64,000 bases of DNA from Artocarpus heterophyllus (Eukaryota > Streptophyta > Magnoliopsida > Rosales > Moraceae). The DNA lies in NCBI GenBank assembly GCA_025403435.1, contig CM046348.1, forward strand, positions 25,169,899 through 25,233,898, in the 5' to 3' direction. The notes below the pieces were generated by a model. The model did no database searches. It saw nothing but the letters and a program-made list of their open reading frames with translations, and was not told the DNA's origin. Every line of letters starts with the position of its first letter. The first letter of the stretch is position 1. Shown here one piece after another: positions 16,797 through 42,943 of the stretch. The position numbers were made by a program, and so were the translations under genes.

Positions 16797-17175
16797 ATCA
16801 ACATCCTCCATAGCCTCTGTGTAAGTATAAGGATCCCTGTCATGTTCTTCTAGTTCAGTCAAAAAGGCCTCACCATTGAACATATACCTCTCGGGTTGAT
16901 GATTAATCCTCCCACTATGCCTAAGCCCCTTAGGTTGTTGTTCAGGTTCGTTTGGTTTTTCTACACTGATAGGAATGGTTTCATTTGAAACCCCTAAAGT
17001 GATTGTATCACTCCTCAACTCCTCAAGCATCACTTTGCTTTGAGGCTTAAAATTGTCCATGTAACTCTCCTTAAGGAAAGTTGCATTAGTTGAAACCACA
17101 ACTTTTTTCCCCTTTGGGTTATAAAAATAACCCCTTAGTCCCTTTTGGATATCCTACAAATATGTAAACTTTTGA
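16785..17175 (-). pseudogene. Copia integrase C-terminus and linker, 3' side of the nested insertion
   Basis: The reading 17099-16785 follows the phrase FVGYPKGTKGYFYNPK (about 17165-17105) and gives VVSTNATFLKESYMDNFKP and LRHSGRINHQPERYMF, the usual integrase-to-RT linker of this family. The left end of the Athila-like element cuts it at 17176-17180. The missing half lies at 29135-30034. Confidence 0.85.
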
Positions 17176-17180
17176 ATGTG
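17176..17180. repeat. Target-site duplication of the Athila-like element, left copy
   Basis: ATGTG directly before TGATGAGACT at 17181. The right copy is ATGTG at 29130-29134. Joining the two flanks restores the copia integrase sentence seen intact at about 2640-2700. Confidence 0.92.
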
Positions 17181-19310
17181 TGATGAGACTATAAAAGTGT
17201 ACATTTTCTAAGGCTTAAATCATTTATTTACGCTTTTATTTCTCATTAAATCCTCTAATTAATAGCATTTTGTGTTAATAAGTATTTTTGTGTCTTGGTG
17301 TGAAAATATGTTTAAAAATACATTTTTAGCGTGTTTTTATGTTTAATAATATTTTAAGTAATTTTTAGAATCATTTTGGTGTGTTAATAAGTGTCTAGTC
17401 TGTAAATAGTCAAAACCGTAAAAGTAATGCAGTTATTTTATTTTGAGTTTTAGTGTGTTTGATAGTGTGTTTTAAGTTTATAAATATATCTTATTATATT
17501 TTTAGTAATTTTTAAAAATATTTCTAAGTCATAGAAATTATATCTGTGCTAAACCGCAAGAAGCTGGAAATTTTAGGAGTTTTTATTTCATTTTGTGTGT
17601 TTTAATGTAAAATAAATATTTTTAATAAATATTATGTTTGTAAAATAATTAATATTAGTGGGATTGTGATTTTAGATTTGAAATCTGGAAGAAAAACGGA
17701 GCAAAACGACAGCAACATGGATAAAATCGGACATCAAATGCATCAAAAAGATAAAGAAAATTTGAATTTAAATTAAATGAGACACATGGCATAACAAGGA
17801 CCGTCGGATTCACTGTCGAATTCATCTCAGCCATCCGAGGAAGAGACGCGTGTCAACGCGTCATTCGGTGCGTCAACAGAATCTCACAGTGTGGTCCACG
17901 TGTCGAGATATGATTGGCGCGTGCATCACACGCGCCGACAAAGCTGCAGCATGTCTCAGAGGGTGCAGCAGGCGTGTCCGATCGTGTGCGGTCGTGTCCA
18001 CGTGCATCCGTTCTTTGAACCGTCAGATCTGAATACTTTGACTCATCCATCGGCCTTAAATCTTGGTCCCACCTAGGCCCATCTTGCCCACATCTGACAG
18101 CCATTGGATCTTATTTTAAACGGTTCTGATCGTGCCTATTCCGTGCTGGTCTGGTCTGCATCACACTGGATTACAAACTCAAATTCGCATTCTCACCAAC
18201 ACAAATCAGCATGAGAAAAGAAGAAAATAATTCAAATCGATCAACTTTCAACAGGAAAAAGCATTAATTATCAATGGACGTTAGTAAATCCAATTCCCTA
18301 TAAATACCGAGGCATTTACCTCAGTTGAAAAGCCCCTCTTACAGCATGAGAATGCTGTTGTAATAATTATAGTCTAGTTTTTATTTTAGTTTTTAGTCTA
18401 GTTTTTTGTAAAATATTTTTTAGTTTATGTTGTAAAAATTATGCTCAATAATATCAGTAGTACTTTATTAATTATGTCTTTCTAAATTTCTTTTTAGCTG
18501 AGGGGAGAGGGGAAATTCTGGCAAAATTATCTTAAACATTTTTGGTTTTTCTTAGTTTTCTAAGTTGTTGTAATGCCAAAATATTCTCTGAGAAAACCTA
18601 GAATTTCAATATTTTCTTAGCTAGAACTCTGCCAAAATTACGGTTCTGATTTATCGACGACATAGACTGGCACGGATAATGCTTGAGAGGACCTTGATTA
18701 CTCGTAGACAGAGAATGGCTCGGTAAATGCTTAACTTACTATCTTGGTTGTTATTTTAGTTAAGTTATGTTGAAATGCTGCTTATTTATTAAGTTATGTT
18801 TTTGCTACATTATAGACATTGAATGACATAGTAAATGCTTGGTAAATCTTGATTTATTGTCGACATAGGATGACATAATGTATACTTAAATCAACTAATA
18901 AATAAAAAGAGAAACTAAAATATATTGAAGATAATTGTCAGAATAAAACCTTTGAACCTCAATCCTATTATTATTATTATTTTACTTCTTTAAATTGTCG
19001 TTATTATTGTTGTTATTCTGCTTAAGTTACTATTTGCATGTCTTGTTATTAAAGTTCCAAATTATCAAAATTTAAAGATGAAAAATGTTGTAAAAAAAAT
19101 GTGTAAATATTGTAAATACATTCTGAAAATAATAAATATTAATCCTTAAATTTTTCAGCTTAAATAAAAAGAAAAAGTTAATATAATACATGTACTGGAA
19201 CTGAATAAATCCTTCCCTATGGGTTCGACCTCGGATTCACCGAGAAAATATTACTTGAGACAACCTTATACTTGAAGTTAGTTTAAAATGCGTAAATAGA
19301 CGCGAGACCA
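17181..19310 (+). repeat. 5' LTR of the Athila-like element
   Basis: It is near-identical to 26997-29129. Short open readings on both strands at 17850-18104 recur at the same place in the other LTR (27668-27922) and look like chance frames in a GC-richer patch. The promoter TATA is at 18298. A stretch with TTTTAGCTGAGGGGAGAGGGG follows at about 18494. Confidence 0.95.
18298..18306 (+). promoter_or_regulatory. TATA box of the 5' LTR
   Basis: CTATAAATA in the phrase CCCTATAAATACCGAGG, the only strong TATA in the middle of the LTR. The matching copy in the 3' LTR is at 28116-28124. Transcription would start about 30 bases on, near 18330. Confidence 0.6.
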
Positions 19311-19316
19311 AGTTTT

Positions 19317-19334
19317 TGGCGCCGTTACCGGGGA
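19317..19334 (+). other. Primer-binding site (tRNA-Asp type)
   Basis: TGGCGCCGTTACCGGGGA begins six bases after the LTR end. It differs by one base (A for G) from the form usual in Athila and related plant gypsy elements. Confidence 0.8.
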
Positions 19335-20006
19335 AGTTATTGTTTTTAGTGCAGTATAATATTGTGTAATATATTTTCTCTTTCTTTTTATTTTTCTTTT
19401 ATATATTACTAACTTTTCTTTTCTTTTGTTTTATTTCTTTTCTTTGGTTAATATCTTTTGTTTTGTAGGTATTTAGTACTGTTCACGTAGAAATCTGCAT
19501 GCATTTTTTGTAAGTTACTACTTAAAGTAGTTACTATTCATGTCACTATTTTAATATTCAAAAAAAATTAAAAAAATAAAAAAAAAAACAAAAATAAAAA
19601 AAATAAAAAAAATTTCTCTCATTTCTTCTGTAAAATATTTATTTTGCTAGTTTTAGGTTTTTGCCTTAGAAATAAAACTTCATAAAATTTTAGATTAGGT
19701 TTTCCATAATACTTAATAAACAAATTGTGTTTTTGTGAAAAGTATTTTTTGAGAAAGTTTTGTTTGGGGACTGGTACTGGTTCGGAATTCTTTCCTATAA
19801 CCGGTTCACTTTTGGAGATTCTCCCAACACCAGTCATTCCTAAAACGTTATTCTGCCAAGGAAATTAGTTCTTAAGGAGCCTTAGCACCACCAATCTTTC
19901 CTGGAAACATTCTTGAAAAATATAATTCACAACTTCACAAAATCAATAAGGCATATATTTTTCATTCACTACTCTACTCTCCCTAAGTGGAGAAAAGCTT
20001 AGTATT

Positions 20007-20018
20007 TGTCTATAAAAT
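20007..20018 (+). promoter_or_regulatory. TGTCTATAAAAT motif, copy 1 (before gag)
   Basis: The 12-base motif ends 120 bases before the likely gag ATG at 20139. The same 12 bases stand before the two cargo ORFs at 23169 and 24505. It has TATA-box form, but its role is not known. Confidence 0.45.
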
Positions 20019-20138
20019 TTTCTAAATATTTAAATAATTTATATGCCAGTTTGGTTTTGTGAGTCTAATAGTCGTAGGTTAGTTAGGAAAAGTTTAGAAC
20101 CACTTTTCATCTCTGTTGTGTCTTCAAATTCACCAAAA

Positions 20139-20819
20139 ATGGCTGATAATGAAAGTGTTCATAATGAAAATATTGATAATCAACAAATCATCAATCCTGT
20201 TGTTCGCTCAATGAGAGATTATTTGCAACCACCCCATGAATCCACTCCATCATGTTTGGTTTTTCCTCTCAATGCTCATCACTTTAGGTTTAAACCTGAA
20301 ATGATCAACTTGCTTCCCAATTTTCATGGCTTAGAATCTGAAAATCCATGTCTGCACCTTAGAGAGTTTGAAGATGTTTGTGCTACCTTCACTGACCAAG
20401 AAGTTTCAAATGAAATTGTTAAGCTTAAGCATTTCCCTTTTTCTTTAAAAGACAAAGCTAAAACTTGGCTTACTTCTTTAAAACCTAGGTCAATAGGTAC
20501 ATGGCAAGAAATACAAACTGAGTTTCTGAAAAAATTATTTCCAACACATAAGACCAATGCTTTGAAAAAACAAATTCAAAATTTTTCCCAAAATGCAAAA
20601 GAAGTTTATTTCCAAAGCTGGGAATGATTTAAAGATTTGTTGAATTCTTGCCCACATCATGGTTTTGAAAAATGGCGTTACATTAGTTTTTTTTATGAAG
20701 TCTTAACTCCTGAAACCCGTCAATTTGTTGAAACAATGTGTAATGGAGAATTCCTTGATAAAGAAGCTGATGAAGCGTTAGATTTTCTTGATAATTTGGC
20801 TGATAACTCTCAATACTAG
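20139..20819 (+). pseudogene. Gag of the Athila-like element
   Basis: The likely start is the ATG at 20139 (context AAAAATGG, reading MADNESVHNEN). An earlier in-frame ATG at 20043 is possible. The gag core reads FRFKPEMINLLPNFHGLES, HLREFEDVCATF, LKHFPFSLKDKAKTWL and FPTHKTNALKKQI. An in-frame TGA at 20625-20627 splits SWE and FKDLLNSCPHHGF; relatives usually have Arg here, so CGA to TGA is the likely change. A TAG at 20817-20819 follows NSQY, where a Trp would be expected. Both changes are C-to-T or G-to-A, as in methylated DNA decay. The protein would coat element RNA in virus-like particles. Confidence 0.88.
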
Positions 20820-21873
20820 CAACATAGTAATTCTGAAGGCTCAATTAGATCTAATCTTGCTAATGCTCAAAGAGGTGTCCATCAACTTAGTCAAGAAAAT
20901 GATCAAGTGTTAGAATTGCATGTTTGACTAAAAAGATTGAAGCCATGGAACAAAGGAATGTCCAAGAACCCAAAATTGAAATTTTGTGTAGTGTTTGCCA
21001 AACTCTAGGACACTCAACTTATGAATGCCCAATTTTTAAGGAAGAGTCCCATGAACAGGTGAATTATACAAATTAATTGGACCCACCTAGAAAGCCATTT
21101 CCATCCCCACATTCTGACACATACAATTCACAATGAAAAAACCATCCCAATTTCAGTTGGAGAAATGATTAACCACAAAAACAATATCAACCACCACCAC
21201 CATTTCCACCACAAAACTCTCAAGGCCGTCCACCATTTCCATCAAATTCTCAAAATTTTCAAAGGCCTCCACAAAATTTTTCTAAAAATCTCCAATCTCG
21301 AGTCAAAACTCTTGAAGACACTTTGCAAACTTTCATTTAGGCTCAAAAATCATTCATTCAAAAACAGGAAGTTCATAACACTCGTACTTCTCAAGACATT
21401 CATGAAATTAAAGAATCCATTTCTAAACTCACTTTTCCCTTCGCATTCAAAAAAAAGGCAAATTTCCTGCTCAACCTGTACATTATCCATCTGCAAATGA
21501 AATTGCATCTTCTAGTTCACAGTCACAACAAGAAACTATTAATTTTGTCACAACTCTTCGAAGTGGAAAAACTGTTGATAAAACTAATCTTTTAAAAGAT
21601 CAGAAAGTTAATTCAACTTTGAAAAGTGGTGATAAAATTAATAGTGATGAGGAAAATTCTGAAAAAGAAAAGAGTGTTTCAAGAGAGAAATTTGTTCCAA
21701 AGATTCCATTTCCTCAAGCTTTGCTTTCAGAAGAGAAGTTTGACAAAAACGTTGAAATATTTAAACTGCTCAAATAAGTCAAAATTAACATTCCACTTTT
21801 AGATGCAATCAAACAAGTCTCATCTTATGCTAAATTTTTAAAAGATTGTTGTACAATTAAAAGAAAGCATAAT
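20820..21873 (+). pseudogene. Gag zinc knuckle and gag-protease linker, broken
   Basis: The knuckle at about 20988-21030 reads CSVCQTLGHSTYEC, a complete C-x2-C-x4-H-x4-C. The frame then breaks near 20925-20965 and again in a Pro/Gln-rich stretch at 21060-21480. From about 21540 a long frame resumes with VTTLRSGK and runs to the protease. It is interrupted by one TAA at 21775 between IFKLLK and VKINIPLLDAIKQV. Confidence 0.75.
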
Positions 21874-22632
21874 GTGACTAAAACTACATTTTTAGCTAAG
21901 AATGTTAGTTCCATCATTCAACATGATTCATCATTGAAATACAAAGATCCTGGCTGTCCCACAATTTCTTGCATCATCAGAAATACTCAAATTGAACATG
22001 CTTTGTTAGACCTTGGCGCTAGTGTTAACCTCTTACCCTATTCTGTTTATCAGCAATTAGGTCTAGGTGAACTAAAGCCAACTTCTGTGACACTTCAACT
22101 AGCTGATCGATCTGTAAAAATTCCAAGAGGTGTTGTTGAGGATGTGTTAGTCCAAATTGATAAATTTTACTACCTACTGGATTTTATTGTTTTGGATACA
22201 CAACCTGTCACAAATTCAAATGTTCAAATTCCTGTCATTTTAGGTCATCCATTTCTTACAACTTCTAATGCTTTGATTAATTGTAGAAATGGAATACTAA
22301 AATTGTCTTTTGGAAATATGACCTCAGAGTTCAACGTTTTTAACATGACACATTCAGCCTCTGGAAAATGTGAAGTGAACTTTATTGAGAGCAATGCTTC
22401 TGGAACGTTTATTGATCCTTTGGCTGATTTGGCTAATTCTTTTGATTCGAATGTTGCACCCAAAATTGATAACCATCCTATGAATGTTTTTGACCAATCT
22501 CTTGAAGCTAAAAATTTAAATTTTGAAACTGAATGTGAAAATGAAGTTTTTGGAGAAGAACCTGAGGATGAGGTGATGGGTGACACTATGGATGACCTCA
22601 TGTATGATCTCATGGATAAAGAAGAATTTTAG
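21874..22632 (+). CDS. Aspartic protease domain ORF of the Athila-like element
   Basis: This is 252 codons without a stop; the real protein would begin further upstream in the gag-pro polyprotein. The active site reads LLDLGASVNLLP (residues ~45-56). D-L-G-A-S is the form normal for Athila and Tat elements. VILGHPFLTTSNALINC (about residue 120) is the second conserved protease block. The C-terminus is acidic and Glu/Asp-rich and ends MDKEEF-stop. Autonomous relatives continue into RT here; this element does not. The role would be cleavage of gag in particles. Confidence 0.85.
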   Translation: MTKTTFLAKNVSSIIQHDSSLKYKDPGCPTISCIIRNTQIEHALLDLGASVNLLPYSVYQQLGLGELKPTSVTLQLADRSVKIPRGVVEDVLVQIDKFYYLLDFIVLDTQPVTNSNVQIPVILGHPFLTTSNALINCRNGILKLSFGNMTSEFNVFNMTHSASGKCEVNFIESNASGTFIDPLADLANSFDSNVAPKIDNHPMNVFDQSLEAKNLNFETECENEVFGEEPEDEVMGDTMDDLMYDLMDKEEF

Positions 22633-23168
22633 CAAAGATTCTTTGCAGCTGCTGGCAATTAACTTTTTGAGAGTGCTATCTTTTGGGAAGGTTTAGAGCA
22701 ACTCTTCCAACAGTCATCAACATTGATGATTCTGACTCCGAACCAGAAACTAAAATCATAGTTATAGATTAATGTTAGTATTGTGTTTATGTTTTTGTAT
22801 TTGTTTGTTGTATCTTTATTTTCTTTGTTTTTCCTAAAAATCAGAAAAATAATTTCAAAAATTCATTAAAATAGCAAAAATTATGGAGGTTATAATCAAC
22901 ACTATTAGTTTGTATTTTTGTATCAATGGCCTCTAGAAATGCATTTTAATGAAATAATTTTCAATGAATTTTTCTGAATTTTAGATCTTTGTAAAAAAAA
23001 TTTAAAAAATAAAAATTAAAAAAAATTGAAAAACTCAAAAAACACAAAAATATTTTCATTTCTGAGCAATCTGTTAGGTTACCTTTCTTTAGCCCATCTT
23101 AGTTTAGCCCATTATTCCTGCATGCGTCTGTACAGTCTTCCCCGTGTCTAAACAGAAATCCACCCCTT
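22633..23168. other. Non-coding stretch after protease, no RT or integrase
   Basis: AT-rich sequence with A-runs near 22990-23060 and no coding frame. A reverse transcriptase would be expected here in an autonomous relative. None of the RT, RNase H or integrase blocks is visible in any frame from here to 26996. Confidence 0.7.
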
Positions 23169-23180
23169 TGTCTATAAAAT
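23169..23180 (+). promoter_or_regulatory. TGTCTATAAAAT motif, copy 2 (before the small basic ORF)
   Basis: Identical to 20007-20018 and 24505-24516. It is followed by a long C/T-rich stretch (about 23210-23420) that looks like a plant 5' leader, then the ATG at 23443. Confidence 0.45.
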
Positions 23181-23442
23181 CTGTTACTATGCATCAAGCT
23201 CAAAAATCTGTGTTCTTTCCCTTTCTAAATTTCTTGTTCTCTCTCTTGAATTCTCTCTGTCTTCTCACTAAAATTCTGAGAAATTCTTCAAAAATCTTTC
23301 AAAGTTCTTCAATCTTTCAAACACTTTTTCTAAAAAATCTTCAATCTCCTTTTCTTCTGCTTCTGCAAAAATCTTCACAATTCTCTCTCAAACTCTCTCT
23401 TAAAGCTTTCAATTCACTCTCAAGAATGTCAATTCCTCAATC

Positions 23443-23985
23443 ATGGATCCAAAATATGAGCACTTAAAGAAATATTTCCCTTCACTTTCTCACAGAGAAA
23501 TTAGAAAGAAGTATAAAACTAGAGTCACTCGTCTTTGGGTACTTTCACGTTTTAAGCTTCCTACTGATATTAAGATGTACATAGAAGGTCTTGTTCGTTC
23601 AAGTGATGTAAATAATGTAGGTCTGCCTGGTATGGGTACAAGTCTATGTGCTAGAAAAAGAAGAGCTCGTCGTATAGAGTCAAAATGTCATAAATATTCT
23701 CGTTAAACTTGTTCTAAAAATTGTCCCTCACCTAGTTTCGTATCTAGAAATAGGGAAGATAAAATTTAGTTTTGTAAAAATGGTCTTAGGAATGAAAACT
23801 TAGAAGATCAACAAGTTTCTCTTGAGTCCTATCCAAGTGGATACTTCTGGGGGGCTATGAAACAACTCTTGCCTCAATTTCATGAAGAAAAAGAACGTCT
23901 TGGGAATCTGACGCTAAAAGACCCAACTGTTCAGTTTACGAGAATGTTAGATGCAAAACAGACTCAAGATCCTTCTACTTCATAA
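23443..23985 (+). pseudogene. Small basic ORF with carlavirus nucleic-acid-binding-protein-like motif, broken
   Basis: The frame from the ATG at 23443 runs 87 codons to a TAA at 23704. It then stays readable, with one more stop (TAG, about 23767), to a TAA at 23983, about 180 codons in all. An LPTDI...YI segment (residues ~46-54) precedes a basic run ARKRRARRI (~69-77). A Cys/His cluster with one apparent Cys-to-Tyr change comes next, and more Cys lie just past the first stop. This order of hydrophobic helix, basic run and Cys cluster resembles the small Cys-rich RNA-binding proteins of carlaviruses. The likeness is by eye only. The C-terminal third is acidic and unlike that family. Its role in the element, if any, is unknown. 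Confidence 0.5.
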
Positions 23986-24084
23986 CAAGGTCTGTAAGGT
24001 ATTTTTCTTTGTTTCTTTGTATGTTTGTCTAAAAAAAAAATTAAAAATTTATTCGAGGTATGATCGTGGTTTTAATGAAAAAAA

Positions 24085-24132
24085 TCATCAAAACGGCTGA
24101 GTAACGGAATTTCTGGAAACGCGTTTTGATGA
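24085..24132 (+). other. Hairpin motif H1 (before LOG)
   Basis: Stem TCATCAAAACG / CGTTTTGATGA (11 bp) closes the inner boxes GCTGAGTAACGG and CTGGAAACG. The boxes are shared with H2-H4 while the stem sequence is not. An outer imperfect stem, AAATTTATTCGAG (24045) with CTCGAATAAAATTT (24156), encloses it. Confidence 0.7.
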
Positions 24133-24504
24133 ACAAAAGTTTTCTTCAACTCATTCTCGAATAAAATTTCATCAACAAAAAGATTTTTATTTTTGTGATC
24201 TATATAGTTGTTGTTTAATAATTGTGATTGTACCGTTTATCTTATAATAATGATATCTTTACTTTTCTTCTTTTGTCAGATGCATAATTTTATTCGGTTG
24301 GTGTCTTGTGTGTCGTGTAAGATAAGCTTTTCTTCGAATTTTAAAATTTAGTCCCATTTGTCAAAAGTTGTACAGTAAAGTCGAGTTTGTCAAAAGGTTA
24401 ATAGTGTTGTCAGGTACAAGTTGTCTGCAGGGGTGTCACATTTATCTGTCCTTGTCTATCATCATAGCTATCTTTATTTAATTTTACCCAACGTTCTCTT
24501 TAGG

Positions 24505-24516
24505 TGTCTATAAAAT
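24505..24516 (+). promoter_or_regulatory. TGTCTATAAAAT motif, copy 3 (before LOG)
   Basis: Identical to the copies at 20007 and 23169. It ends 88 bases before the LOG ATG, a normal TATA-to-ATG distance for a plant gene. It could drive LOG independently of the LTR. Confidence 0.5.
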
Positions 24517-24604
24517 ACTTTTAGTTCTTAAGTTTTTCTCAAAGCAAATTTATAAGATAAAGTCAGTCAAAAAAAAAAAAAGAGTCTTAGTCTTAGTAAC
24601 TATC

Positions 24605-25243
24605 ATGGATTCCTCGTCCCAGTCATCTTTAAAGTTTAATAATATCTATGTGTTTTGTGGTTCTAAATCAGGAAAAGGTATTGATTACATAGAAAATGCA
24701 TTTCATTTAGGCTATGTCTTGGCTAAGAAAAAGATAAACCTTGGCTATGGAGGAGGTAGTCTAGGTTTAATGGGTACTGTCTCTACTGGAAGACGTTCTG
24801 GAGGTACTGGAGCTTTAGGTATTATTCCAGGTGTCCTTGCTCAAAGTCGTTTATGTGGTCCTACCATTGGTGTTGAAAAAATAGTTGCAGGTATGCCTGA
24901 GCGAATAAGAGACATGGAGTTTGCTTCTGATGCTTTCATTGCTTTACTTGGAGGTTTAGGAACTCTAGAAGAACTTTTTGCCATTGCTAGTTGGAAATTG
25001 TTAGGACTACACTCTAAACCTGTTGGTTTGTTTAATATAAATGGTTACTTTCACAGTTTGCTTAGTTTTTTAGATCATGCTGTGGAACAAAAGTTTCTTG
25101 AGGAGTCAGGAAGAAAGATTTTTATCTCTGCCACTACTGTAGAGGAATTGCTCAAAAAAATGCACGTCATTGATCTTGAAACAGACACTGCAACATCAAA
25201 GTTCTGTGAAAAACGCAAACGAGATTGGGATCTTTCTCTCTAA
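24605..25243 (+). CDS. LOG-family cytokinin riboside 5'-monophosphate phosphoribohydrolase, captured by a retrotransposon
   Basis: This is 212 codons without interruption, close to the ~210-220 aa of plant LOG proteins. These enzymes release active cytokinin base from its nucleotide in the cytosol. The visible blocks are IYVFCGSKSGK (residues 14-24), YGGGSLGLMG (48-57), GIIPGVL (72-78), MPERIRDM with the catalytic-type Arg (97-104), SDAFIALLGGLGTLEELF (108-125) and LHSKPVGLFNINGYFHSLLS (135-154). The usual PGGxGTxxE is LGGLGTLEE here, so Pro is Leu, but the Gly, Thr and Glu remain. The loop at 60-69 also departs from the family. Host LOG genes have several introns and this copy has none, which points to capture from mRNA. 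It is the one fully open cargo frame in an element whose gag is broken. Confidence 0.92.
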   Translation: MDSSSQSSLKFNNIYVFCGSKSGKGIDYIENAFHLGYVLAKKKINLGYGGGSLGLMGTVSTGRRSGGTGALGIIPGVLAQSRLCGPTIGVEKIVAGMPERIRDMEFASDAFIALLGGLGTLEELFAIASWKLLGLHSKPVGLFNINGYFHSLLSFLDHAVEQKFLEESGRKIFISATTVEELLKKMHVIDLETDTATSKFCEKRKRDWDLSL

Positions 25244-25380
25244 ACTCTACCTCTTTTATTTTTACTTACAGCATTATTGTTTTTGTCTTTGCGTTTGTAT
25301 TTGAATAACCACCCTTGTAAGTATATGTTGTTAGTCTTCTTACTTAATCTTGTTAAACATTGGGAACAGTGTTCAATTTA

Positions 25381-25396
25381 GGTTGGGGGGAGAAGG
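25381..25396 (+). other. Internal polypurine tract
   Basis: GGTTGGGGGGAGAAGG follows AACAGTGTTCAATTTA. Athila and Tat elements often carry such a G-rich tract at the start of their long 3' untranslated region. It may prime a second plus-strand start. Confidence 0.5.
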
Positions 25397-25522
25397 TTGT
25401 GTCAATTATTTTCTTTTGTGATTGAATCTGGGACTAGTTTTAAAAACCAAGCGAAAAAAAAACTCAAAAAAAAAAGAGGGTGTGTGCTGTTTGTAAGACT
25501 TTAAGATTCATGTGTTCATAGG

Positions 25523-25565
25523 TCGAGATGGCTGAGTGAAGGTTCTGTCCTGAAACGCGTCTCGA
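25523..25565 (+). other. Hairpin motif H2 (after LOG)
   Basis: Stem TCGAGATG / CGTCTCGA (8 bp, one U-G) closes GCTGAGTGAAGG and CTGAAACG, with 7 bases between the boxes. Confidence 0.7.
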
Positions 25566-25640
25566 TAATGGTCCGAAAATGAAGTCCTTTGTGTTTGTAA
25601 AATTCTCATCTCTGCATCTTTCCTTTGTAGCATGCAAGTT

Positions 25641-25690
25641 TGAAGATGGCTGAGGTAAGGAGTATTTATTATTCTTGAAACGCATCTTCA
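25641..25690 (+). other. Hairpin motif H3 (after LOG)
   Basis: Stem TGAAGATG / CATCTTCA (8 bp, perfect) closes GCTGAGGTAAGG and CTTGAAACG, with 13 bases between the boxes. Confidence 0.7.
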
Positions 25691-25696
25691 CCTTGG

Positions 25697-25746
25697 TAGA
25701 AATAGCTTAGTAATGGAGTGACTAGCATTCTTGAAACGTGTTTCTA
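25697..25746 (+). other. Hairpin motif H4 (after LOG)
   Basis: Stem TAGAAATA / TGTTTCTA (8 bp, one U-G) closes GCTTAGTAATGG and CTTGAAACG, with 13 bases between the boxes. It begins six bases after H3 ends. Confidence 0.7.
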
Positions 25747-25749
25747 CAT

Positions 25750-26984
25750 GATTGTAAAAAAAAAAAATTGTGTATTTGTATTGCATTTATTAAAAAAAAA
25801 ACAACTAAAAAAAAATTTAAAAAAATCTAAAAATATTTTGGTGATTTGCCTCCTGTCCAATGACGATATCAAGATTATATCATTTCCATGACTTAAGGTA
25901 AATTTTAAATATTATTTAAGTTTATGTTAGTTTCTTTAGTTTGCCATATGTTTAGGATGAAATTTTCCCAAAATTTAAACACTTAATCTTGCACTATGAT
26001 TTGTTATATTAATTTAGAGACTGTTTATGTTAGTATAATTTAGTTTATTTTTTATAAAACCTTATAACTTGTTTAAATCCTTCTTGAGATGAAATCTTAG
26101 ATAACACTAAGTTATAGATATAATTTAGGCCATCTTTGGATCGTTTGAGCCTTTGAAGCTAACCTGTTTACATTCTATATCCCTAGTCACCTCGTTGTGC
26201 TTAATGTTCTATTTTCTTTGTTACCCATATATTTAGCCTAGCCTTTTTAATAAATTGTAATCCTTTTCTTGTACCTTTCACTCATAAGGCATCTGTTCTT
26301 TCAAGTGAAATCAGATTTATGAGGTTAGGATGAGTTAGGAATATTTGCTACCTCTGTAAAATATGTATGTTTATTGTAACTCTTCAGTTATTTTATATCA
26401 AAAAAAAAACAAAAAAACAAAAAAAAAAAAAAACATAAAAAAAGAAGAGGAAAGTTAAATATAAAGTGGTTGACAAAAGAAATTTCATTTTGAGTTCGGG
26501 ATTGTAAGCTTTGGGAATTGGATTGTACATTTTAAATGTTCGGGATTTTTGTAAGTGTCTTATGGGTAAACTAAGCCTCAAATATATCTTCCATCATACC
26601 TTTAACCCAAGCCTTATATTACAAGCTAAATAAACTCCTAAAGGTCTTTAACAAGGTGTTATTCTATATTAGTGGAGAGAGGGATGAAAAACAAGTTTAT
26701 AAGAATTAATTTAAATAAATTAAGATATATTAATATAAATTTATCTGATTAATATGCATTGATTAGTAATAGAAATTCACACACACAGAGAGGAAAATTC
26801 ATCTTAAATAATTGATGAACTCAAGAAATGAATCATAACTTAATTAGTGTTTACATCTTTACTTTGAGGCATGAATATGAGATAAACCCTGAAGAAAATC
26901 AGTGAGGAATCGCAAGTTTGAAAAAAAAAATCGTTTGTCTGTTTTAAGTTTTATCGCTTTAGTTGCTAGAGACTAGCAATAAGC
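25750..26984. other. 3' untranslated region of the Athila-like element
   Basis: AT-rich sequence with A-runs at about 25755, 25790 and 26400-26440 and no coding frame of substance. Long non-coding 3' regions are normal in Athila-type elements. Confidence 0.6.
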
Positions 26985-26996
26985 TGGTTGGGGGTG
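26985..26996 (+). other. Polypurine tract before the 3' LTR
   Basis: TGGTTGGGGGTG ends exactly at the LTR start TGATGAGACT. Together with the upstream ACTAGCAATAAG it is the typical Athila plus-strand primer region. Confidence 0.8.
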
Positions 26997-29129
26997 TGAT
27001 GAGACTGTAAAAGTGTACATTTTCTAATGCTTAAATCATTTATTTACGCTTTTATTTCTCATTAAATCCTCTAATTAATAGCATTTTGTGTTAATAAGTA
27101 TTTTTGTGTCTTGGTGTGAAAATATGTTTAAAAATACGTTTTTAGTGTGTTTTATGTTTAATAATATTTTTAGTAATTTTTAGAATCATTTTAGTGTGTT
27201 AAATAAGTGTCTAGTCTATAAATAGTCAAAACCGTAAAAGTAATGCGGTTATTTTATTTTGTGTTTTAGTGTGTTTCATAGTGTGTTTTAAGTTTATAAA
27301 TATGTCTTATTATTTTTTTAGTAATTTTTAAAAATATTTCCAAGTCATAAAAATTATATTTGTGTTACACCGCAAGAAACTGGAATTTTTAGGAGTTTTT
27401 ATTTAATTTTGTGTGTTTTAATGTAAAATAAATATTTTTAATAAATATTATGTTTGTAAAATAATTAATATTAGTGTGATTGTGATTTTAGATTTGAAAT
27501 CTGTAGAAAAAAACAGAGCAAAACGACACCAAAATGGATAAAATCGGACATCAAATGCATCAAAAAGATAAAAAAAAATTCAAATTTAAATTAAATTAGA
27601 CACGTGGCATAACAAGGACCGTCGGATTCACTGTCAAATTCATCTCAGCCGTTCGAGGAAGAGACGCGTGTCAACGCATCATTTGGTGCGTCAGCGGAAT
27701 CTCACAGTGCGGTCCATGTGTCGAGATATGATTGGCGCGTGCATCACATGCGCCGACAAAGCTGCAGCGTGTCACAGAGGGTGCAGCAGGCGTGTCCGAT
27801 CGTGTGCGATTGTGTCCACATGCATCTATTCTTTGAACCGTCAGATCTAAATACTTTGACTCATCCATCGGCCTTAAATCTTGATCCCACCTGGGCCCAT
27901 CTTGCCCGCGTTTGACAACCATTGGATCTCGTTTTGAACGGTTCAGATTGTGCCTGTTCTGTGCTGGTCTGGTCTACGTCACACTGGATTACAAACTCAA
28001 ACTTGCATTCTCACCAACGCAGATCAGCGTGAGAAAAGAAGAAAATAATTCAAATCGGTTAACTTTCAACAGGAAAAAGCATTAATTATCAATGGACGTT
28101 AGTAAATCCGATTCCCTATAAATACCGAGGCATTTGCCTCAGTTGAAAAGCCCCTCTCGTTGCATGAGAATGCTGTTGTAATAATTATAGTCTAGTTTTT
28201 ATTTTAGTTTTCAGTCTAGTTTCTTGTAAAATATTTTCTAGTTTATGTTGTAAAAATTATGCTCAATAATATCAGTAGTACTTTATTAATTATGTCTTTC
28301 TAAATTTCTTTTTAGCTGAGGGGAGAGGGGGAAATTCTGGCAAAATTATCTTAAACATTTTTGGTTTTTCTTAGTTTTCTAAGCTATTGTAATGCCAAAA
28401 TATTCTCTTAGAAAACCTAGAATTTCAATATTTTCTTAGCTAGAACTCTGCCAAAATTACGGTTCTGATTTATCGATGACATAGACTAGCACAGATAATG
28501 CTTGAGAGGACCTTGATTACTCGTAGACAGAGAATGGCTCGGTAAATGCTTAACTTACTATCTTGGTTGTTATTTTAGTTAAGTTATGTTGAAATGCTAC
28601 TTATTTATTAAGTTGTGTTTTTGCTACATTATAGACATGGAATGGCACAGTAAATGCTTGGAAAATCTTGATTTATTGTCGACATAGGATGGCATAGTAT
28701 ATGCTTAAATCAACTAATAAATGAAAAGAGAAACTAAAATATATTGAAGATAATTGTCAGAATAGAACCTTTGAACCTCAGTCCTGTTATTATTGTTGTT
28801 TTACTTCTTTAAATTGTCGTTATTATTGTTGTTACTCTGCTTAAGTTACTATTTGCATGTCTTGTTATTAAAGTTCCAAATTATCAAAATTTACAGATGA
28901 AAAATGTTGTAAAAAAAATGTGTAAATATTGTAAATACATTCTGTGAATAATAAATATTAATCCTCAAATTTTTCAGCTTAAATAAAAAGAAAAAGTTAA
29001 TATAATACATGTACTGGAACTGAATAAATTCTTCCCTGTAAGTTCGACCTCGGATTCACCGAGAAATTATTACTTGAGACAACCTTATACTTGAGGTTAT
29101 TTTAAAATGCGTAAATAGATGCGAGACCA
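26997..29129 (+). repeat. 3' LTR of the Athila-like element
   Basis: TGATGAGACT...GCGAGACCA, aligned end to end with 17181-19310 with scattered, mostly transition differences and a few 1-2-base indels. Confidence 0.95.
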
Positions 29130-29134
29130 ATGTG

Positions 29135-30060
29135 CTTCCAACTTATTTGCATCCTTAAATAGGACATGAGTCGGACATCCCCATATGCAAATATGGTTTA
29201 AGGATGTCTTCCTGCCCATCCATAACTCATGAGGAGTTTTAGGTACCAATTTGGAAGGCACATTGTTCAAAAGATAACTTGCGGTTTCTAATGCATATCC
29301 CCAAAAGGATAAAGGAAATGATGAATACTCATCATAGACCTAACTATGTCCAATAAAGTCCTATTTCTTCTCTCAGCTACACCATTTTGCTGCTAAGTGC
29401 CTGGCACAATCAAATGGGATAAAATCCCATTCTCTAATAGGTGTCCCAAGAGCTCATCAGAATGGTATTCTCCACCTTGATCAAATCGAAGTGCCTTTAT
29501 GGGTTTTCCCAATTGCTTTTTCACTTCAGCCTGAAACTCCCTGAACTTGTCAAAAGTTTCGCTTTTGTGGTGCATCAAGTATACATACCCATATCTTAAG
29601 TAATCATCAATAAAAGTGACAAAATACTCATACCTTCCTCGTGCCTGGATGTTAATCGGTCCGTAAACATCACTATGCACAAGTTTTAGAACCCCTTCGG
29701 CCCTATTACCCTTAGACCTGAATGGTCTTATGGTCATTTTACCCTCCAAACAAGATTCACGTTGAGGTATAGCTTCCACCTTTAAGTGACTTAGAGGTCC
29801 ATCCTTTACCAACCTTTGAATCCTATTAAGGTTAATATGACCAAGGCGCAAATGCCAAAGATAAGTCTTATTAGAGTGAGAAGTTTTAAGTCTTTTAGAG
29901 TTATCATCATTCATCTCAGCATTAAGCAATAAGTCCATCTTAGGTTTGATAAAATATAGATTATTTTGTATCCATCCAGAACAGATAAAAGATTTGTTTT
30001 TATGAATCATCACTTTATTATTAAAAGAAACCAAATAGGAGTCTTTAAATAAAAAAGCTA
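29135..30060 (-). pseudogene. Copia integrase, 5' side of the nested insertion
   Basis: The 213-codon reading 30034-29393 contains LWHLRLGHINLNRIQRLV (GAG-pre-integrase region), FVTFIDDYLRYGYVYLM (first catalytic Asp) and ALRFDQGGEYHSDELL (second Asp and flank). A one-base shift near 29393 then leads through the third block to LEAHS at about 29140, where the Athila-like element is inserted. It is one of the better preserved pieces of this copia. Confidence 0.88.
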
Positions 30061-41539: not shown

Positions 41540-42943
41540 AGCTTTGTTTTGAAAAACATATGTAACTTTGACATTATAACAACTTAAAAAAAATTAAAAA
41601 ACTAAAAATATATAAGTTATTTTTCTAAAATTTCCCTCTCTCCTTGTCAAAAAGAAAATTTAGAAAAATATATTAAAAGTAAAAACACACATAATTCTAC
41701 TAAGCATAACTATTTTACAACATAACCTTAAAATGATATTTTACAAATAAAACATAGTACTAAAATCTTAAAACTAACCTGAAACTACTTAGGATAGTAA
41801 TTCTATACTAATGAGAGGAGGTTGTTCTCAGATAGGGAATGGGTGGGTATTTATAGGAAGGATTTGAGATTTTTATTTTTATTTATTTTATTTATTTATT
41901 ATTATTATTTTATTTTTTATTTTGTTAGATATGATAGCACAATTATTTGAAAAGATTTGATTTGAATTTTTTCATTTTTTTTCCTTTCAGTAGCCCACAT
42001 GAATGAATCAAAGCTTATTGATTTTTTTCTTTCTCTTCCCGCTTGAAACGACTGAGGAGAATGTTGATTTGGGCTTATAACCTGCTCTTTTGGCGATACT
42101 GAATGCACGCTTCTTAGCCTTTGGATCGCTGATCAAAGACTGGACGAATGGCTGGGATTGGCGAAGAATGGTAAGACCGCATGAGCTTTCTATGACCGTT
42201 GGATTTGTTATGGTACGTTGATTTTGCAGCTGTGGATGAGAGAGCACATGCAACCTGCTACACACAATCTGGAGGGTGGCTTGACAACTGTAGAGACATG
42301 TAGATGGCCTGGATTGATTTGTAGGTTGGATCCGACGAACCTCGTTGTGCCATGCGTCATTTTTTTGAATTTTAATTTCTTTTTTATTTCTTATGCATTT
42401 GATGTTCGTTTTTACCTCTTTTTGCACTATTTTGCTCAATTTTTCCTCTAGATTTTTAAATCTAAAATTAACAAACACACTAAAATTATTATTTTATGAA
42501 CATAATTTTTACAATAATTTAAAAATATTTATTTTACAATTAAACACACCATAAATAAATAAAAACTTCTAAAATTAAGAAACCTTAATAAATATATTAT
42601 CTAAGACTCAGAAATATTTTTAAAAATTACTAACAATGTAATAAAACATATTTACAAACTCAAAAATTATTTACAAATAATTTAAGACTCAAAATAAAAT
42701 TACATAATATTATTTTTATGGTTTTACTATTTATAAACTAATTAATTATAAAAACACACCAAAATGACTCTAAAAATTACTAAAAATATTATTAAACATA
42801 AAACCACACTCAAAACATATTTTTACACAAACACACTAAAATACTATTTAACATAAAATGTTATAATTAAGGGATTTATGAGAAATATTAATACAAAATA
42901 ATGATATTTAGCCTTAAAAAATATGCATTTTTAGCAATCTTCA
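41540..42943 (-). repeat. Old, diverged relative of the Athila-like LTR
   Basis: Read on the minus strand from 42943 it follows the LTR at 17181 step by step. It shares TGTTTAATAATATTTTTAG, the GAATCATTTTGGTG-type phrase, a GC-richer patch with CGTCGGAT, a CCTATAAATACC TATA (about 41848), GTAAAATAT and TATGTTGTAAAA. Divergence is high and the distal end is uncertain. A 156-codon open reading at 42478-42008 lies in the GC-richer patch and looks like chance. No matching internal region is next to it, so it is a solo or broken LTR. Confidence 0.75.

Follow-up and report, generated by a model that had tools for sequence, protein, structure and literature searches.

A LOG-family gene with an altered base pocket under purifying selection in an LTR retrotransposon family of Artocarpus heterophyllus

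A 64,000-nucleotide stretch of the Artocarpus heterophyllus genome (assembly GCA_025403435.1, contig CM046348.1, positions 25,169,899 to 25,233,898; hereafter the window) contains a long terminal repeat (LTR) retrotransposon that carries an open reading frame (ORF) of the LOG family, to which cytokinin-activating enzymes belong. The interpretation that we favor, with moderate confidence, is that this element represents an apparently pol-less family that captured a plant LOG and retooled it as a nucleotide phosphoribohydrolase serving the element. At the selection level, purifying selection acts on the LOG ORF during propagation of the element, as it does on the protease of the same element. 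At the protein level, alignment of the copies indicates that their LOG combines a largely intact hydrolytic center with a foreign base pocket.

Identity of the ORF and its substrate pocket

The initial annotation described an intact LOG ORF inside an LTR element, a description sustained by the 212 open codons, the exact LTR ends, the ATGTG target site duplication (TSD) and the existence of an empty-site paralogue. The ORF at 24605-25243 matches the Pfam Lysine_decarbox family (PF03641) with an E value of 3.3e-31 and 108.6 bits, against a cut-off of 27, and NCBIfam TIGR00730 with an E value of 2.9e-41 and 141.1 bits, against a cut-off of 96.35; it belongs to the LOG / TIGR00730 family and has the LOG fold. 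Its closest solved relative is Arabidopsis LOG3 (2a33, E 1e-52), with 199 residues aligned at 46% identity in a gap-free pairwise match. Under the NCBIfam equivalog CtkRMPhLog (NF058542) it reaches 88.6 bits against a cut-off of 300, a score obtained for the ORF alone, without known plant LOGs as a control. In a tree of the ORF and 81 LOGs (78 proteins from 80 loci, two of which were dropped because their reading was too short, together with YvdD, Arabidopsis LOG3 and LOG8), the ORF groups with the Arabidopsis pair with a support of 94/76, which the tool does not rate as a firm branch. Its branch length is 2.19, versus 0.19 and 0.37 for the Arabidopsis proteins, and the placement of such a long branch is unsure. 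Among the positions identical in LOG3 and LOG8 and conserved in at least 90% of bacterial LOGs, the ORF keeps 35 of 43, versus 41 of the 84 remaining LOG3/LOG8-identical positions (p 5e-4). Most likely, as judged from these comparisons, the ORF is a plant LOG, fast-evolving yet evolving as a protein. Host LOG genes presumably contain introns, and the lack of introns in the ORF would be consistent with capture from mRNA. Viral contigs searched with LOG and with a piece of ORF2, a companion gene of the element, yielded no close relative, and tblastn (E up to 1) with LOG, gag, protease and ORF2 pieces gave no match elsewhere in the window.

The substrate pocket can be compared with that of the Corynebacterium glutamicum enzyme (CgLOG). 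There, the prenyl site comprises Met96, His97, Lys100, Glu125 and Trp129, Arg99 and Glu122 are proposed to be catalytic, and alanine at AMP-binding or catalytic residues, Lys100 being named in the text, is reported to nearly abolish activity, with the exception of S19A (PMC4979012). The His, Lys and Glu that line the pocket of cytokinin-making LOGs are each absent from all 41 copies of the element's LOG that were compared (0/41), which mostly carry Pro, Ile and Ala instead; the pocket Met is kept in 41/41 and the Trp in 36/41. The full Met, His, Lys, Glu and Trp set of the prenyl/adenine pocket that marks a cytokinin-activating LOG is therefore lacking. The catalytic Arg/Glu and the PGGxGTxxE phosphate loop that characterize the LOG family are present: E122, E123, T120, M97 and S20 are unchanged in all 41 copies, the catalytic R100 is kept in 35 (the losses being CGA to TGA or CAA), and in the loop P115 is found in 33, G116 in 34, G117 in 40, G119 in 38 and T120 in 41. 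Arabidopsis LOG3 and LOG8 (1ydh) share the fold, the catalytic Arg/Glu and the phosphate loop with the element's LOG but have an intact His/Lys/Glu pocket. Because the pocket is replaced throughout and the center is largely kept, the ORF is not filed as a cytokinin-activating LOG, and the cytokinin activation proposed at first is not upheld. The hormone-recognizing part is altered in every copy examined; therefore, the enzyme probably serves a different function now. Three transversions in the pocket codons since insertion have a probability of 1.6e-5, a value computed before the copies were seen but for codons picked post hoc. Two other replacements in the window copy were rejected as family traits: P115L, a single C-to-T change, with L in only 7 copies and S in 1, and V47G, where 37 copies have V, 3 have I and 1 has G.

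Copies in the host genome and selection on the ORFs

A search of the host genome (985 Mb, 334 contigs) with the LOG protein returned at least 152 matches, nearly all full-length and with 85-94% identity. By a hand count in the score-ranked and hence biased list, about 72 of about 150 LOG rows among the matches listed lack a stop. Forty copies spread over the score-ranked list were taken as internal pieces, giving 41 with the window copy; since this sample was drawn through LOG, its counts do not give the fraction of family members without LOG. Other copies with the same layout, which the initial annotation had suggested looking for, are abundant: the order gag, protease, ORF2, LOG is kept in 31 of the 40, and the distance from protease to LOG is too short for pol in 33 of 38. 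LOG is full-length with zero frameshifts in 40/40 copies of this score-ranked sample and open in 23 of 41 when the window copy is included. Of the copies in which the respective piece was found, 14 of 35 have a frameshift in the gag N-part and 11 of 39 have one in the protease. The family is large, apparently non-autonomous and apparently of Ty3/gypsy type.

Selection was assessed on a tree of 39 copies from which the LOG ORF itself was excluded (of the 41, two were left out, the needed piece being missing), with a neutral nonsynonymous to synonymous ratio (N:S) of 3.01 obtained from non-coding singletons. For LOG, N:S is 334:120 on terminal branches, near neutral, and 37:42, or 0.88, on internal branches (p 4.7e-6), and dN/dS is about 0.3 during element multiplication. 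The protease behaves like LOG, with an internal-branch N:S of 1.04 (p 3e-5), and its frequency-class count gives 0.63 and 0.31 (p 0.021); for both genes the tree test and the frequency-class count are concordant. A comparison with gag had been proposed at the outset: LOG is under purifying selection like the protease, but the gag N-part does not reach significance in the tree test (p 0.24) or in the frequency classes (0.66 and 0.25, p 0.058). The first part of ORF2 shows a shift of N:S from 138:61 to 15:20 in the tree test (p 0.0036) and no signal in the frequency-class count (0.44 and 0.44, p 1). Its second part gives no signal in the tree test (103:42 and 15:6, p 1), and one stop there is common to 13 copies. 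The full-length open frame of the window copy, presented in the initial annotation as special, turned out to be unexceptional. With 2.3 lesions expected, the probability of none is 0.10, or 0.25 by simulation, and the open frame is therefore weak evidence by itself.

The element and its companion features

The features of the element are collected in Table 1. Both LTRs are bounded by TG...CA, are flanked by the 5-bp TSD and agree at 2017 of 2133 aligned sites (K 0.057, counted over stretches that exceed the LTR coordinates by a few bases). An empty-site paralogue of the flanking retroelement lies at about 2655 on the minus strand, and the joined flanks match it at 658 of 793 positions. Paired LTRs, TG..CA ends, TSD, primer binding site, polypurine tract and empty site together identify an LTR retrotransposon. 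Upstream of LOG, Pfam recognizes gag (PF03732) and protease (PF13650); no Pfam match (E up to 1) to reverse transcriptase, RNase H or integrase was found in the six frames of 22633-26996. The primer binding site TGGCGCCGTTACCGGGGA is presumably of the tRNA-Asp type, and the gag, this primer site type and the long LTRs are the only features that hint at a possible placement in the Athila/Tat (OTA) lineage of Ty3/gypsy. Non-autonomous elements of the TR-GAG type consist of LTRs and gag without pol; the window element is alike in these respects but has two further ORFs. LOG had been placed between the protease and the 3' LTR, which is correct as to the protease upstream and the 3' LTR downstream, but ORF2 sits between protease and LOG.

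Table 1. Features of the LOG-carrying element (window coordinates)
Feature	Position	Strand	Remarks
5' LTR	17181..19310	+	TATA-like CTATAAATA at ~18299; TSD ATGTG precedes
Primer binding site TGGCGCCGTTACCGGGGA	19317..19334	+	from sequence, by eye
TGTCTATAAAAT copy 1	20007..20018	+	before gag
gag-protease region	20139..22632	+	broken: 7 internal stops, 2 frame changes
TGTCTATAAAAT copy 2	23169..23180	+	before ORF2
ORF2	23443..23985	+	broken, 2 internal stops; basic run and Cys cluster; weak Viral_NABP/Carla_C4 match
RNA hairpin A	24087..24130	+	
TGTCTATAAAAT copy 3	24505..24516	+	before LOG
LOG-family ORF	24605..25243	+	212 aa, open; pocket residues P98, I101, A126; R100, E122, E123 kept; P115 to L
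RNA hairpin B	25522..25566	+	
RNA hairpin C	25640..25691	+	
RNA hairpin D	25696..25747	+	
Polypurine-like tract GGTTGGGGGTG	26986..26996	+	from sequence, by eye
3' LTR	26997..29129	+	TSD ATGTG follows

Of 40 natural copies, 10 have an uninterrupted ORF2 frame of 184 aa. Four scanned open copies match Viral_NABP (PF05515) with E values of 3.7e-4 to 2.7e-3 and 18.2-20.9 bits, against a cut-off of 23, and three of the four match Carla_C4 (E 2e-3 to 0.05), likewise below the curated cut-offs. Nine shuffles of the window's 87-aa ORF2 piece produced no Viral_NABP or Carla_C4 match, and no solved relative of this piece was found. With the cysteine-rich (CRP) or NABP proteins of carlaviruses, allexiviruses and mandariviruses, ORF2 shares a basic run resembling a nuclear localization signal followed by a zinc-finger-like Cys cluster; viral proteins of the NABP/CRP type are reported to be silencing suppressors, and one of them a transcription factor that causes hyperplasia (PMC12172455). 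ORF2 differs from the flexivirus proteins in that its match lies under the Pfam cut-offs and that nothing beyond the basic run and Cys cluster has an accepted match. With scores of this order, a certainly viral identity was dropped; the resemblance makes a gene exchange between virus and retrotransposon, in either direction, possible.

LOG is also flanked by hairpins A-D, whose stems covary around a nearly constant GGCUGAG..GAAACG internal loop. The pattern occurs four times in the element and in none of 200 shuffles, and the four hairpins are 95.9% paired with a covariation of 0.590, versus 0.306 when shuffled. The folding stability of single hairpins is not markedly above that of shuffles (z -0.6 to -1.7), and no Rfam family reaches the gathering score for any of the four. 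A model of the hairpin finds 183 sites in 40 copies, 157 of them of the short kind by our own count. The best 150 rows reduce to 94 distinct ones with 93.2% pairing and a score of 0.519 versus 0.269, in an alignment fitted to the model, and the number of pair types in these 94 rows is no higher than in shuffles. The other 26 of the 183 rows, again by our count, measure 85-86 nt and sit farther upstream, in most cases some 1.7 kb ahead of LOG; they likely represent a fifth hairpin, divergent from the other four and situated between the protease and ORF2. Hammerhead ribozymes were considered and dropped, as the arrangement is, on general grounds, unsuited to them.

Three exact copies of the TATA-like 12-mer TGTCTATAAAAT precede the three ORFs, 100, 133 and 274 bp before the starts of LOG, gag and ORF2, respectively. 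When the internal region is shuffled 200 times, only 2 of the shuffles contain any four-letter 12-mer three times. A search of the whole window that tolerates one mismatch would be expected to give 1.45 matches to TGTCTATAAAAT, and three are reached in 17 of 100 shuffles. Within one mismatch, 37 of the 40 copies have the box ahead of LOG, 35 have it ahead of ORF2 and 17 ahead of gag, the last number being limited by piece ends. LOG would be the third ORF on the genomic LTR transcript. It could be translated from its own short mRNA started at the box at 24505 or from a spliced LTR transcript (19510 to 24277). A donor-like GTAAGT lies at 19510, behind the primer site (the internal region holds three such motifs), and a pyrimidine-rich acceptor-like site at 24277, before LOG (one of six); in 24 of the 40 copies, TCAG stands close to the position that aligns with the acceptor, and the arrangement resembles retroviral env splicing.

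Elsewhere in the window, LTR pieces that belong to the same family in the wider sense but are divergent (41567-42933, minus strand) show about 75% identity over 640 bp, and gag, protease, ORF2 and LOG are not detectable in them by tblastn. An Rfam scan of 17000-29400 found nothing at gathering score; the plant snoRNA snoR71 gives a sub-threshold match antisense to gag (20557-20665, minus strand; 36.7 bits versus 40, E 1.9e-4).

Competing explanations and relation to known systems

In the scenario that we favor, an apparently pol-less gag-protease family of Ty3/gypsy type would have acquired the coding sequence of a plant LOG, the simplest route being via processed mRNA, and would have retained it as an accessory gene. 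The protein would still hydrolyze a nucleoside 5'-monophosphate or a related phosphoribosyl nucleotide, with a base preference other than that of cytokinin LOGs, and this hydrolysis would help the element to multiply. Several points weigh against this scenario. Two LOG stop changes fall on internal branches, and one LOG stop, at codon 206 near the end, is common to 4 copies. The open-frame and zero-frameshift counts are biased because the copies were ranked by LOG protein score. The TGTCTATAAAAT boxes do not exceed neighboring 12-bp windows in conservation across the copies; 234/790, 245/604 and 85/160 of these windows are at least as conserved. Moreover, purifying selection is no proof of catalysis, as a binding or structural role would keep the fold and core too.

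A catalytically dead or non-catalytic LOG fold that binds nucleotides or dimerizes, for instance as a particle or regulatory component, accordingly deserves a minor share of belief. The pocket Lys gone from 41/41 copies corresponds to an AMP-binding residue whose replacement is reported to nearly abolish CgLOG activity (PMC4979012), but a dead enzyme need not keep E122, E123, T120, M97 and S20 in every copy and R100 in 35 of 41. That the element uses a cytokinin-activating LOG to favor dividing or meristem cells is unlikely: family membership, the catalytic Arg/Glu and selection agree with it, whereas three of the five prenyl-site residues (His97, Lys100 and Glu125 of CgLOG) are replaced in 41/41 copies. 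We give little credence to an elaboration in which LOG would remove a non-cytokinin nucleotide, such as an immune signal nucleotide produced by plant TIR proteins or a modified adenine monophosphate, and would form, with the silencing-suppressor-like zinc-finger ORF2, an accessory module with which a pol-less element counters host control. A captured gene hitchhiking without function would fit the stops in about half of the LOG copies among the matches listed (hand count) and the unremarkable openness of the window copy, but it is very improbable given the internal-branch N:S of 0.88 against the neutral 3.01 (p 4.7e-6), with a similar value for the protease (1.04). An assembly artefact, or a host gene between misassembled LTRs as envisaged in the initial annotation, can practically be dismissed in view of the many dispersed copies of the same layout, the TSD and the empty-site paralogue.

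LOG-carrying Gypsy elements are already known, because a YgdH (LOG) domain has been published in Gypsy-type consensuses of Citrus sinensis and C. clementina and, under a looser filter, of Populus trichocarpa (Alvarado-Marchena et al. 2022, PMC9289625, which cites Steinbauerova et al. 2011). Those plant Ty3/gypsy elements likewise have a LOG-family domain as an extra, but they were found via consensuses bearing reverse transcriptase, whereas no pol was found in the window element; that text names the domain only twice (PMC9289625). The AlkB (2-ODD) ORF of Phalaenopsis Gypsy elements is a further case of an enzyme of host type that became an established accessory gene in a plant Gypsy family; it differs in being an RNA demethylase with activity shown in vitro, carried by 25-kb elements with gag and pol (PMC9289625). 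Our literature search found LOG/YgdH in retrotransposons only in PMC9289625, within the text accessible, captured-gene surveys such as PMC3726574 lying outside its scope, and it met no description of selection on LOG elements, pocket replacement, a companion ORF or RNA hairpins. New here are the selection, the pocket change and the companions (ORF2 and the hairpins).

Extra ORFs are common in plant LTR elements and seldom linked to a testable activity. In this family, a selfish element preserves under selection a small enzyme whose family is structurally well characterized, with a defined pocket change in every copy compared. Therefore, the benefit of an accessory gene to a retrotransposon becomes testable by ordinary enzymology, and the finding hints that transposons may tune the nucleotide metabolism or signaling of the host cell.
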